Origin: Cyanomargarita calcarea GSE-NOS-MK-12-04C
GTDB lineage: Bacteria > Cyanobacteriota > Cyanobacteriia > Cyanobacteriales > Nostocaceae
Reading direction: 5' to 3'
Assembly: GCA_019359595.1 (NCBI GenBank)
Contig: JAHHGZ010000024.1
Location: 1-64,000 of the forward strand
DNA: 64,000 nt
Part shown: positions 16,377-27,001 of the stretch, one piece after another
Layout: each line of letters begins with the position of its first letter
Position numbering within the stretch: the first letter of the stretch is position 1
The notes under the pieces: model-generated
What the model was told of the DNA's origin: nothing
What the model saw: the letters and a program-made list of their open reading frames with translations, nothing else
Databases searched by the model: none
Program-made: the position numbers and the translations under genes

Positions 16377-17561
16377 ATGGCAAGAATAGAAACCCGCACT
16401 GAACCAATGGTGCTGAACATGGGACCTCACCATCCCTCAATGCACGGGGTTATGCGGTTAATTGTCACCTTAGATGGCGAGGATGTAATTGATTGCGAAC
16501 CGGTAATTGGTTACCTGCACCGGGGAATGGAAAAAATTGCGGAAAACCGGACGACGATTATGTACGTCCCCTACGTAAGTCGGTGGGATTACGCAGCCGG
16601 GATGTTCAATGAAGCCGTCACCGTTAATGCTCCCGAAAAGTTAGCAGGTATTGTTGTTCCCAAACGCGCCAGCTACATTCGCGTCATCATGTTGGAGTTG
16701 AACCGCATCGCCAACCATTTGCTGTGGTTCGGTCCCTTCCTGGCAGACGTAGGCGCTCAAACTCCCTTTTTCTACCAGTTCCGCGAACGTGAGATGATTT
16801 ACGATTTGTGGGAAGCTGCGACAGGTTACCGGATGGTGAATAATAACTACTTCCGCGTCGGTGGGGTCGCAGCTGATTTACCCTACGGCTGGGTAGATAA
16901 ATGTTTGGATTTCATCGACTATTTTATACCGAAAGTTGATGAATATGAGCGCCTAGTCACAGATAACCCCATCTTCCGCCGTCGGATTGAAGGAATTGGC
17001 ACCATTACCCGCTCTGAAGCGATTAACTGGGGACTTTCCGGACCAATGTTACGCGCTTCTGGCGTTCAGTGGGATTTGCGCAAAGTAGACCACTACGAAT
17101 GTTACGATGATTTTGACTGGGATGTACATTGGGAAACCGCTGGTGACTGCTTCGCCCGCTATGTGGTGCGGATGCGAGAAATGCGCGAATCAGTGAAGAT
17201 TATCAGACAAGCCATCCAAGGACTTCCCGGCGGCCCTTATGAAAATCTCGAAGCCAAGCGTATCGCTGCAGGGAAAAAATCTGAGTGGGACGAATATGAT
17301 TATCAGTACATTGGTAAGAAAGTTTCTCCCAGTTTTAAGATTCCTAAAGGTGAAATTTACTCACGTGTAGAAAGCGGTAAAGGCGAATTAGGAATTTATC
17401 TAGTTGGTGATGATAACGTCTTTCCTTGGCGGTGGAAAATTCGCGCTGCTGATTTCAACAATGTCCAAATTCTCCCTCATTTACTGCGTGGAATGAAGGT
17501 AGCAGATGTTGTGGTAATTCTCGGTAGTATTGACATCATCATGGGTTCGGTAGATAGATAG
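16377..17561 (+). CDS. ndhH: NAD(P)H-quinone oxidoreductase subunit H (NDH-1, 49-kDa type)
   Basis: 394 residues, full length. Typical motifs: [15 protein letters not shown] at 11-25, [14 protein letters not shown] near 46-59, [13 protein letters not shown], and the C-terminal DIIMGSVDR with the usual Asp-Arg end. It is a peripheral-arm subunit of the thylakoid NDH-1 complex lining the quinone site, used in respiration and cyclic electron flow. A terminator follows. Arg49 in the LHRG motif corresponds in position to the arginine region methylated by NDUFAF7 in mitochondrial NDUFS2. An NDUFAF7-like gene lies 1 kb downstream. Confidence 0.98.
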
Positions 17562-17623
17562 GAAATATCTGTCCTATGTGTTTTGAAAAATCAGTGGTTG
17601 CACTAAAGATGTAATTACTATCT

Positions 17624-17657
17624 AGATTCCCGACTTCGTAAAAGTTGTCGGGAATCT
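17624..17657 (+). terminator. Terminator after ndhH
   Basis: AGATTCCCGAC (17624-17634) pairs perfectly with GTCGGGAATCT (17647-17657), followed by TATTTTTC. It is a strong Rho-independent terminator 60 bases past the ndhH stop. Confidence 0.88.
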
Positions 17658-17927
17658 TATTTTTCAATTATTTCGGAACGCCATAATACCAATTCTATGT
17701 AAAGCTGCGCGAAATAAATATAGTCTGGCTGAGGCTATAAACCTTGTAGACAAATTCAATGCTCGTCTAATTAGTAATCTGAATTTAGTATAAGTATCGA
17801 ACTACCTAGAAGTCTGATAAGTTAGGATAAAAATCTGACAAACTTTGTCTGGGAGTTGGCGGTTTAATACCCCAACCTCTAAAGTTTGTCGGTTTTGAGT
17901 TGGGATACCAATCCACATATATAAACC

Positions 17928-17966
17928 TCTTCCTTCTTCCTTCTTCCTTCTTCCTTCTTCCTTCAT
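17928..17966 (+). repeat. Heptanucleotide tandem array (CTTCTTC)n upstream of the GAF gene
   Basis: Five to six copies of a 7-bp CTTCTTC unit immediately before the GTG start of the GAF protein. The unit differs from the AGTTAGG arrays but has the same 7-bp period. The 418 bp between ndhH and the GAF gene otherwise hold the terminator and a GACAAACTTT/AAAGTTTGTC inverted pair (about 17837-17890). Confidence 0.85.
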
Positions 17967-17979
17967 TCAATTTAAGCTT

Positions 17980-18519
17980 GTGCAAATTCATTTCAACCCA
18001 GAATCTAGCAAAAGTCCAAATGGGCATTATGACCAAGGTTTGAAAAGAGTACTCGATCGCCTTACTAAAACTATAGAAAGAGATGCACTAGTGCGAGAAA
18101 CAACAACCGAACTAAGAACATTTCTCCAGGTTGACCGCGTGGTGTTATATTACTTTTATAGTCAGTGGGACGGACAAGTTACTTTTGAATCTTTGAGTTC
18201 TAAAGAGTTCTCAATTCTCGGTTCCACAGGACCGGATGATTGTTTTAAAGATGAGTATGCCGCTTTGTATCTAGCAGGGAGAGCAAAGGCGATCGCGGAT
18301 ATAGAATTGGAGGATATCCAGCCATGTCACCGCGATTTTTTGCGTCGGTTGCAAGTACGAGCTAACCTCGTGGTACCAGTTTTGATACCTCGGGGATTGT
18401 GGGGATTGCTGGTTGCCCATCACTGCCAACAACCTCGCTCTTGGTCATCATCAGATATTGAAATGATGCGAAAAGGGGCACAGACTCTAGCAACAGCACC
18501 TTGTATTTTAGAGAGTTAA
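17980..18519 (+). CDS. Stand-alone GAF protein with cyanobacteriochrome (DXCF) features
   Basis: 179 residues, GTG start, one GAF domain and little else. It carries a DXCF-type motif (Asp86-Asp87-Cys88-Phe89) and a canonical chromophore Cys116-His117 in IQPCHRDFL. The flanking blocks are those of bilin-binding GAF domains (YLAGRAKAIADI; VRANLVVPV; LWGLLVAHHC). DXCF cyanobacteriochromes attach phycocyanobilin at the canonical Cys and a second reversible link at the DXCF Cys, giving blue/green or similar photocycles. No output domain is fused, so any signal must pass to a partner protein. Chromophore binding is inferred, not shown. The gene follows ndhH on the same strand but behind a terminator. 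Confidence 0.8.
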   Translation: MQIHFNPESSKSPNGHYDQGLKRVLDRLTKTIERDALVRETTTELRTFLQVDRVVLYYFYSQWDGQVTFESLSSKEFSILGSTGPDDCFKDEYAALYLAGRAKAIADIELEDIQPCHRDFLRRLQVRANLVVPVLIPRGLWGLLVAHHCQQPRSWSSSDIEMMRKGAQTLATAPCILES

Positions 18520-18562
18520 TTGCTGGTTGCCCATTCATCAATCCAAAATCTGAAATTTTTTT

Positions 18563-19789
18563 ATGAATTCAACAAGAGCGTTATGTGAGGCTCTAGTCCA
18601 TAGCATTAGTACAAGCCCCCTTCATCGAATTACTTTCGCTCAATACATGAGCATCGTACTATATCATACAAAGTACGGTTACTATTCTACTGCCGCAGTT
18701 AACCTGGGTAAAAAAGGTGATTTTTTCACATCCGTTCACCTCGGGGCTGATTTTGGTGAATTGCTGACGGAGCAATTTGTTCAAATGTGGGAGATATTAG
18801 GGCGACCCAAACCATTTACACTCGTAGAAATGGGAGCCGGTCAAGGGCTTTTAGCCTTAGATACCCTCAAGTATATGAAGCAGGAGTATCCCGATTTTTT
18901 TGACTGCTTAGATTGCATTATTGTTGAAAAATCGCCAGGTTTAAGAGAAGTACAACAGCAATACCTGCAAGAATTTCCCGTGCGTTGGTGCAATTTGGAA
19001 GATATTCAAACTAACTCAATTACTGGTTGCTTTTTTTCTAACGAATTAGTCGATGCTTTTCCGGTGCATCAATGTATCATAGAAAACGGTCAATTGCAAG
19101 AGATATATGTCACAACCGAGAAAAACCCAACCCAAAGACCTCATACTGGGTCGGGGGAAAGTTTACATCAGACTGTGCTAGAAAAGGTAAATTATGAATT
19201 CACAGAAGTAACTGGTGAACCTTCCACTTTCGAGCTTGCGAAATACTTTGATTTAGTTGGGATTAAAATTACAGAAAGTGTTTATCCAGAAGGCTATCGC
19301 AGCGAAGTTAATCTAGCAGCGCTACAGTGGTTAAGTATACTATCAGACAAATTGCAGCGTGGGTATGTGCTGACAATAGATTATGGCTATCCGGCGAGTC
19401 GTTACTACAACCCCAGGCGATCGCAAGGAACTCTACAGTGCTACTACCAGCATCATCGCCACAGTAATCCCTACATAAACATCGGGCAACAAGATATCAC
19501 AACCCATGTTGACTTTACCGCTTTAGAAAAATGGGGCAAGCAGTGTGGATTGGATAAAGTTGGTTTTACGCAGCAGGCATTGTTTTTGATGTCTTTGGGA
19601 TTAGGAGCAAGAATTGCCTCACTGTCCCATCAACAGCAACCAATTTCCCAATTATTGCAGCGCCGGGATGCACTACACCAGCTTCACGATCCTATGGGAT
19701 TGGGCAGTTTTGGAGTCCTTGCCCAAACTAAAGGTTTGACAGAAGCAGAGAATTTGAATCAACTCAAGGGATTTGCCGTGCCAGAATAA
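18563..19789 (+). CDS. NDUFAF7/MidA-family SAM-dependent methyltransferase
   Basis: 408 residues. The N-terminal block (ITFAQYMSIVLYHTKYGYYS), the SAM motif TLVEMGAGQGLLALD near 87-101, FFSNELVDAFPVH near 156, and the later TIDYGYP block match COG1565/NDUFAF7 proteins. In mitochondria NDUFAF7 dimethylates an arginine of NDUFS2 during complex I assembly. NdhH, the NDUFS2 homologue, is encoded 1 kb upstream on the same strand, which fits a role in NDH-1 maturation. That role is inference. It starts 43 bases after the GAF gene, so the two may be co-transcribed. Confidence 0.88.
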   Translation: MNSTRALCEALVHSISTSPLHRITFAQYMSIVLYHTKYGYYSTAAVNLGKKGDFFTSVHLGADFGELLTEQFVQMWEILGRPKPFTLVEMGAGQGLLALDTLKYMKQEYPDFFDCLDCIIVEKSPGLREVQQQYLQEFPVRWCNLEDIQTNSITGCFFSNELVDAFPVHQCIIENGQLQEIYVTTEKNPTQRPHTGSGESLHQTVLEKVNYEFTEVTGEPSTFELAKYFDLVGIKITESVYPEGYRSEVNLAALQWLSILSDKLQRGYVLTIDYGYPASRYYNPRRSQGTLQCYYQHHRHSNPYINIGQQDITTHVDFTALEKWGKQCGLDKVGFTQQALFLMSLGLGARIASLSHQQQPISQLLQRRDALHQLHDPMGLGSFGVLAQTKGLTEAENLNQLKGFAVPE

Positions 19790-25036: not shown

Positions 25037-27001
25037 CTAATTAATCGTGCCAGTCAATGGTGAAGAGGCACTGGCGTAAGATTTAATCGGCATTCTCCCG
25101 GCAAGATATGCCAAACGACCAGCAACTGCGGCGAGATTCATGGCGCGTGCCATTGCTGGTGGATTTTGGCTCATAGCGATCGCGCTATTAATTAATAAGG
25201 CATCTGCACCCATTTCCATTGCCTGTGCGGCTTCTGACGGTGAGCCAATACCGGCATCGACGACCACGGGGATCTTGGCATTCTCAATGATAATTTCGAT
25301 GTTGGCAGCGGTTTTTAAGCCTTGTCCGGAACCAATGGGAGAGGCTAAAGGCATCACTGTTGCACAACCGACTTCTTCCAAGCGTTTCGCCAACATCGGG
25401 TCAGCGTTGATGTAAGGTAAGACTGCAAAGCCTTCTTTTACCAGTTGTTCTGCTGCTTGCAATGTCCCGATTGGGTCTGGAAGTAAATACTTAGCATCTG
25501 GTATCACTTCTAGTTTGATAAAGTTATTATCTTCCTGTCCTAGAAGTTTTGCCATTTCTCGCCCCAAACGTGCCACGCGAATTGCTTCTTCAGCAGTTTG
25601 GCAGCCGGCTGTGTTGGGCAACATCCAAATTTTTGACCAATCTATAGCTTCGGCTAAACCTTCGTGCCCTGGTGCTTGAGTTTGAACTCTTCTGACGGCG
25701 ACAGTAACTATTTGACAATTACTTTCAATAACGCTTTGTTGCATTTCTTCAATGCTGCGGTATTTACCAGTACCTGTCATCAAGCGAGAGGTGAAAGTTT
25801 TGCCAGCGATGATTAGGGCTGAGGAATCATATTGGGGGAGTACAGGGGTAGAAACGCTACTAGAGAAGGTCTGCACAGGAGCCGATGATGGTTTTTGAGT
25901 AAGCATGGGGGTAGATGGCTGGCGATGAAACCTGGTGTGATGGAATTGAGTTAGTAAAGGATCGGATTTTTGCTCCCAAACCAAATCAGCTATTACTGCT
26001 GCAGTGATGGGCGTAAGGAGAATACCATTGCGATAATGACCGGTAGCAAAGGTTAAGTTTTTACAGGGGCTAGTGCCGAGAATTGGTAATTCGTCAGAAG
26101 TGGCAGGACGAAATCCCCACCAAAATTCTTCGATGGGATAATGTTGTAGTTGGGGATATAGCCGGATGGCTTCTTTTAGTAAAGTTTGAATACCTGCTGG
26201 GGTGTTGTGGGGTGTAAAGCCAACATCAGCGCTGGTAGCACCGATGATAATTCGCCGATCGCGCCTCGGTACTATATAAATATTTTCCCCATATAAAACC
26301 CGATTTAAAGGTAATTCCGGCACAGATTCTGGGACTCGCACGCTTAACATTTCCCCTTTCAAAGGACGTACGGGCAGCGGAAATAATTGATTTGACCAAG
26401 CACCTGCTGCTAAAATATAATGTTGGGCGTAAAGTACTCCTGCATTGGTTTGGATGCCAATAACTTCTCCCCGTTGCTGTGGAATAGATAAAGCTGTAAT
26501 CCCTTCTTTAATCTCAACGCCTAAGATTTGCGCTGCTGTTAATAGTGTTTGCGCTAACTTCCTATTATCTACTTGTGCGTCTTCAAGATGCCACCAGCCA
26601 CCAACTACTTCTTCTCCTAAACCGGGCTGATATTGATGTATCGCGGCTTTATCTAACCAGTAAGAGGAGTGGGGGGTGGAGGGATTGGGGAGCATCTCCC
26701 CCTTGTGTTCATAGACTGGTGCTAAAATGCCACAAGACCAATAATCGGTATTTAATCCGGTAATTTCTTCGAGTTTGCCCGTCCATTCAGGATATAAATA
26801 GAGCGATCGCCTGCATAATTCCTGCATTGCCCCATCTGGGATTTGTTCGGCACTTGGTGCTAACATTCCAGCAGCAGCATGGGTGGCGGCAGATTGAAAG
26901 TCACGGCTGATGATGGTAACTGATGCACCTCGTAATTTCAGTTCAACGGCGATCGCTAAACCAATAACGCCACCACCAATAATTAAAATGTCACTAGTCA
27001 T
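25037..27001 (-). CDS. thiO-thiG: Bifunctional glycine oxidase ThiO / thiazole synthase ThiG
   Basis: 654 residues. The N-terminal half (about 1-365) is a DAO-type FAD oxidase with dinucleotide motif [15 protein letters not shown] at 6-20 and [11 protein letters not shown] near 343. After a Ser/Pro-rich linker, ThiG runs from about 390 ([18 protein letters not shown]) with the Schiff-base Lys in [10 protein letters not shown] and the phosphate-binding [12 protein letters not shown]. ThiO makes dehydroglycine, which ThiG condenses with DXP and ThiS thiocarboxylate to form the thiazole of thiamin. The fusion is a known cyanobacterial feature. I found no TPP riboswitch in the upstream DNA. Confidence 0.96.

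Follow-up and report, generated by a model that had tools for sequence, protein, structure and literature searches.

What does a photoreceptor domain do when it is encoded on its own, between a gene for a subunit of NDH-1 and a gene for a methyltransferase? This question is raised by an open reading frame at 17980..18519 (+ strand) of the window, the whole 64,000-nucleotide stretch of DNA analysed here, which starts with GTG and encodes a stand-alone DXCF cyanobacteriochrome GAF protein of 179 aa. Its upstream neighbour is ndhH (16377..17561, +; NF005649, 841 bits), the gene for NDH-1 subunit H, and its downstream neighbour encodes a Methyltransf_28 protein (18563..19789, +; PF02636, 1.6e-75). 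An earlier, sequence-only reading of the window had named both neighbours and had described a single-domain protein of 179 residues carrying DDCF (Cys88) and Cys116-His117; the neighbours, the reading frame and the residue numbers all proved correct.

The GAF domain and its class

GAF was the sole Pfam domain above the cut-off (residues 34–173 of 179, E = 1.1e-18), and no kinase, chemotaxis or cyclic-di-GMP output domain is attached to it. Such an attached domain is typical of cyanobacteriochromes and lies outside their definition. The protein has four cysteines, at positions 88, 116, 149 and 175. The first of these, the second cysteine of the DXCF type, has its codon at 18241–18243 (+), inside a DDCF motif (residues 86–89; 18235..18246, +) that aligned to the DPCF of TePixJ, while Cys116 forms the canonical pair with His117 (18325..18330, +). 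In the phmmer alignment with TePixJ (E = 3.4e-23), Cys88 and Cys116 fell on the two TePixJ cysteines with zero gaps between them. The features of a DXCF cyanobacteriochrome are therefore present, namely a phytochrome-type GAF domain, a Cys-His at the bilin-pocket position and a cysteine within D-X-C-F; the class needs no PHY or PAS domain and is cyanobacterial, and orthologues were found in named cyanobacteria.

A sequence search of solved structures returned miRFP670nano (2.4e-27), the sensor kinase 6oap (6.3e-27) and TePixJ 3vv4 (3.4e-23) as the best matches. We also built an AlphaFold2 model on an alignment of 36 family members. This chromophore-free model had a mean pLDDT of 77.8, with values below 50 at residues 1–13, 63–68 and 79–86, the last stretch directly preceding Cys88, and when it was used in a Foldseek search, cyanobacteriochrome GAF structures ranked first, including the blue-light forms of TePixJ (4glq/4fof). 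The GAF domain of TePixJ (PDB 3vv4, 4fof, 4glq) shares with the window protein the DXCF and Cys-His motifs, their identical spacing and the fold family, but TePixJ is named a methyl-accepting chemotaxis protein and so has an output, whereas the window GAF stands alone. By contrast, miRFP670nano and the dual-sensor histidine kinase 6oap, which head the list by sequence and rank among the top by fold, are without the DXCF cysteine, and 6oap is the sensor of a histidine kinase. The earlier proposal of a DXCF-type bilin-binding GAF is supported by the Pfam match, the TePixJ alignment and the predicted fold, from which we infer bilin binding itself. As a DXCF domain the window gene is ordinary; what makes it interesting is the lone-domain family to which it belongs.

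Distribution and conservation of the family

At least 491 of 576 pattern stretches in named genomes encoded a relative, and the named loci referred to hereafter are the best 80 of these at least 491. Orthologues were present in 115 of 243 genomes (47%) and 59 of 110 genera of the window's order (E <= 1e-45), and in 100 of 291 genomes (34%) and 48 of 131 genera of the class (E <= 1e-42), the two genome lists sharing 17 genomes; the best paralogue within the window's genome, at 7.6e-38, lies just outside both orthologue cut-offs. The gene was nearly always single-copy, with two matches per genome in only 2/115 (order) and 2/100 (class) cases, and the second match in one genome (G459) sits in an open frame of 669 codons, which makes it a multidomain relative rather than an orthologue. 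Lone DXCF GAFs had been called uncommon, and this held within the window's genome, where 26 of the 27 matching stretches lie in open frames of 517–2316 codons and the window gene alone occupies a short one; it did not hold across cyanobacteria, given the 34% and 47% of genomes above.

Both chromophore-pocket positions are strongly conserved. In an alignment of the window protein with L021–L129, Cys88 was kept in 108/110 sequences and Cys116 and His117 in 110/110, and a second, overlapping alignment, consisting of L080–L100 again plus 80 fetched loci, gave 99/101 for Cys88 and 101/101 for both Cys116 and His117. Pooling the two (some genes having been fetched twice) yields 188/190 for Cys88 and 190/190 for Cys116, the sole Cys88 exceptions being two loci with Ser88, both from Mastigocoleus testarum BC008. 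The end of the protein is equally stable, with the C-terminus no more than 6 residues past position 179 in 110/110 sequences and no more than 11 residues past it in 101/101 of the second set. Long open frames inspected among the orthologues extend upstream only; the longest of the order-wide search, 341 codons in G104, falls outside the inspected set. As for the start, 65 of 109 related loci carry an aligned N-terminal motif (the other 44 being without the motif). Of these 65, 60 have GTG at the start position, 2 have ATG and 3 have a different codon, which supports the predicted GTG start of the window gene. Across 78 close pairs among 13 Nostoc loci the median dN/dS was 0.22 (range 0.10–0.51), and the family is under purifying selection.

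We placed 36 family members in a tree with 20 rows from the window's own genome and two solved domains (58 rows, 55 of them different). All family members grouped on a single long-stemmed branch (support 100/100), to the exclusion of the multidomain paralogues encoded in the window's genome. This branch includes row L001, the window gene labelled as an outside group, and it is this labelling that makes the tree count two group changes; several of the remaining own-genome rows are repeats of a single domain. Which cyanobacteriochrome is the sister of the family is unsure, because long branches meet at that point.

These data bear on whether the window gene might be a remnant of a larger cyanobacteriochrome, or else a gene in decay. 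Of the 27 own-genome stretches, all but this one lie in long open frames, and three of 117 order-wide rows, all distant orthologues (G106, G164 and G170), contain in-frame stops and may be broken copies. However, the protein ends at the same place in distant lineages, relatives share its start codon, dN/dS is 0.22 and the members form a single clade, so that this explanation is refuted for the family and retains a negligible probability for the gene. The window gene is a real, well-conserved photoreceptor, one member of an old, mostly single-copy cyanobacterial family.

The neighbourhood of the GAF gene

The position of the gene had invited the suggestion of a light-linked role in NDH-1 regulation. 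NDUFAF7, a member of the Methyltransf_28 family, methylates the complex I subunit homologous to NdhH, and a GAF protein encoded between ndhH and a Methyltransf_28 protein could be pictured as a light-dependent regulator of NDH-1. We examined linkage in 80 genomes picked for contiguity, to which we added every one of the 18 genomes sampled from the window's own family (taken, from its named relatives, to be Nostocaceae). Of these, 78 contained ndhH and 71 the methyltransferase. For each of the three genes we compared the single best place in a genome; contig ends can hide some neighbours in the counts, and extra ndhH copies, judged by eye, leave these unchanged. The GAF gene lay within 10 kb of ndhH in 8/13 own-family genomes versus 2/61 others; for the methyltransferase the corresponding figures were 9/13 and 0/54. 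ndhH and the methyltransferase, for their part, were no more than 10 kb apart in 6/17 own-family genomes and 15/53 others, and outside the family this pair stands without the GAF gene (15/53). From these counts it follows that the ndhH–methyltransferase pair is the wider linkage and that, within this sample, it is only in the window's own family that the GAF gene falls between the two.

Some observations do favour an NDH-1 regulator: in two non-family genomes the GAF gene is near ndhH, namely in G450 and in G384, where the start points are 651 bases apart, and of the best 80 named loci, 22 have ndhH upstream, 37 have the methyltransferase downstream and 16 have both. Against it, the linkage is largely confined to one family, the methyltransferase is never close elsewhere (0/54), the pair occurs without the GAF gene, and the GAF gene has its own conserved block upstream of its start codon (see below). 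We consider the regulator very unlikely, and the 2/61 and 0/54 outside the family do not bear out the suggestion drawn from the neighbourhood; the place of the GAF gene beside ndhH looks accidental. The ndhH–methyltransferase linkage suggests that the cyanobacterial methyltransferase has NDH-1 as its target, much as mitochondrial complex I is that of NDUFAF7, a role that the wider pairing fits and for which a photoreceptor is unnecessary. As for an NDH-1 accessory factor more generally, the linkage expected of one was not conserved across lineages for ndhH or the methyltransferase. A tempting but unsupported link to NDH-1 is thereby removed. The window's genome also contains a second copy of ndhH, 78% identical (G000:C2:26078-27259), and second copies occur in some other genomes too.

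No other neighbour qualified as a recurrent operon partner. In a survey of 101 loci (L080–L100 plus 80 fetched loci, some contigs appearing twice, such as L091/L178 and L097/L192, and L084 and L089 coming from the window's family), no neighbour cluster occurred in more than 7; cluster 6, for instance, contributed one upstream same-strand member in 5 loci (L097, L170, L185, L192 and L224). A glyoxalase-like gene (PF00903) lies directly downstream on the same strand in 29 of the best 80 named loci (for example L021 6144-6569, L024 5615-6004 and L079 5553-5963); in three of these, the stretch examined shows no ndhH on the upstream side and no methyltransferase on the downstream side. Among the 101 survey loci only L089, a Nostoc, has it downstream, while L220 shows, by eye, a different glyoxalase-like protein between ndhH and the GAF gene, and a search of the window's genome, run without a positive control, gave no match at E <= 0.001. 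We took this neighbour to be limited to certain lineages.

DndD-like and DndC-like genes, the latter named from their sequence, stand beside the GAF gene in L091, L092, L164, L178 and L179. The DndD-like protein (in L179, 2874-4880 on the - strand) scores PbeC first and DndD second; of 80 genomes searched, 66 have its gene, and in 4 of these (G065, G118, G122 and G147), compared by eye, it lies no more than 1 kb from the GAF gene. We judged this to be residual synteny of two families rather than function, and a DndC/DndD-like functional partner was rejected. The GAF gene had no match among 72,556 plasmid records at 1e-35 or among 50,697 phage records at 1e-10; locus L048 is titled as a Nostoc carneum plasmid. 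Elsewhere in the window (25037-27001, -), ThiO-like and ThiG domains are fused in one protein of 654 aa.

Upstream region, Alr3356 and a possible mode of action

A block of approximately 57 nt upstream of the start is common to most of the 65 orthologues shown, and its left 27 nt were matched at 20 or more positions in 48/64 upstream regions, the motif having been derived from these same sequences. In the window, an AT-rich, FurA-box-like remnant of the block lies at 17812..17838 (+), with 22/27 matches compared with 19 for the best of 1000 mononucleotide shuffles. It is followed by a short repeat with CTTCCTT heptamers at its end (17848..17975, +, approximate limits). This repeat is dispersed, with 45 matching places in the genome including this one; it measures roughly 110–130 bp and has inverted-repeat arms at 17831-17846/17881-17896. 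Because the repeat intervenes between the block and the GTG, expression of the GAF gene is uncertain in the window strain, and the repeat may have changed it. A promoter and terminator scan of 17540-18700 gave nothing above shuffles. Using the FurA consensus of Anabaena as given in the available text of PMC4005646, with one extra spacer base allowed and a threshold of at least 15 of 19, we found hits in 15/65 upstream regions versus 39/1300 (3%) dinucleotide shuffles, the regions being related and not independent; this putative enrichment of FurA boxes upstream of the orthologues is suggestive.

The comparison with Anabaena sp. PCC 7120 adds to this picture. According to the accessible passages of PMC4788461, alr3356, annotated as 'similar to phytochrome', was up 3.94-fold on FurA depletion, its promoter was shifted by FurA in gel shifts, and FurA-repressed targets were slightly up under iron restriction; the same passages, citing Ma et al. 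2012, call Alr3356 a cyanobacteriochrome and a phytochrome-like sensory photoreceptor. Alr3356 as a FurA-repressed cyanobacteriochrome is already in print. Two papers identify alr3355, in the parts available, as ndhH, and alr3356 therefore occupies the syntenic place by locus numbering. Alr3356 resembles the window protein, by its description in that portion of PMC4788461, as a GAF-domain cyanobacteriochrome with a locus number next to ndhH, whereas the window strain is set apart by the dispersed repeat that separates the block from the GTG. From the locus numbering and the description, the window gene is likely the orthologue of Alr3356, and its own position agrees, as it adjoins ndhH, like the 8/13 own-family genomes with the GAF gene within 10 kb. 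Spectra of Alr3356 are reportedly contained in the article of Ma et al. (2012, FEBS J). PMC4788461 was the sole match for alr3356 in the open full-text literature, and the main texts of PMC4005646 and PMC12282138, as far as available, leave it unmentioned. A conserved output-less cyanobacteriochrome family was undescribed in the titles and opening abstracts of the papers that searches of the open literature listed, a coverage outside which most subscription papers fall.

We favour, with a probability of roughly three in four, a free-standing DXCF cyanobacteriochrome, likely orthologous to Alr3356, that would act as a blue-absorbing bilin photoswitch signalling in trans and made under iron stress; the bilin, the photocycle and the partner are what we infer. 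For the DXCF group, the available part of PMC11284453 describes TePixJ as a phycoviolobilin-carrying protein that undergoes blue/green conversion, its second cysteine forming a reversible bond. On the favoured reading, Cys116 would covalently hold phycocyanobilin or its isomer phycoviolobilin, and Cys88 would form a second, light-labile thioether at bilin C10, giving a blue-absorbing dark state. Light would then isomerise the 15,16 double bond and Cys88 would be released, yielding a longer-wavelength (green/teal or orange) form. The simplest way for the signal to exit, given that the protein has no output domain and that its C-terminus has stayed constant in evolution, would be light-dependent binding to another protein. 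Repression by FurA, published for alr3356, makes iron shortage the probable condition under which the cell produces the switch.

A different explanation of the missing output is that the protein binds bilin without signalling, as a sink, carrier, light-screening or antioxidant biliprotein when iron starvation dismantles the phycobilisomes. The absence of an output domain and of a widely recurring neighbour (101 loci) agrees with this, as does the presence of alr3356 in the same FurA table as nblA, a phycobilisome degradation gene, in the accessible portion of PMC4788461. However, 188/190 sequences retain the second cysteine, which is light-labile in DXCF relatives and for which a mere carrier would have no use, and the gene is nearly always single-copy, which is why we regard a non-signalling role as unlikely. 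FurA control, and with it the iron/redox context of those passages, could also point to a thiol redox or non-bilin ligand sensor reusing both cysteines. This is highly improbable, as the Cys-His and DXCF positions and their spacing are exactly those of TePixJ and the best solved matches are, by name, phytochrome-type bilin proteins.

Returning to the photoswitch acting in trans, we suggest tentatively, at somewhat less than even odds, that the whole output-less class, usually one per genome, might be a diffusible, iron-responsive blue-light switch binding another protein, with the conserved loop and the fixed C-terminal helix as the interface. If true, this would be a mode of cyanobacteriochrome signalling without a fused kinase, cyclase or chemotaxis domain. 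Cyanobacteriochromes are normally read via fused outputs, and the conservation of the lone domain makes the question of its partner and light state a testable one; a protein working in trans would, moreover, offer an interaction module of 179 residues, controlled by blue light and ready for use. The family consensus of the loop is GSTGPD-x-CFN-x-EYAALY, and the window protein has Lys90 where the consensus has Asn.
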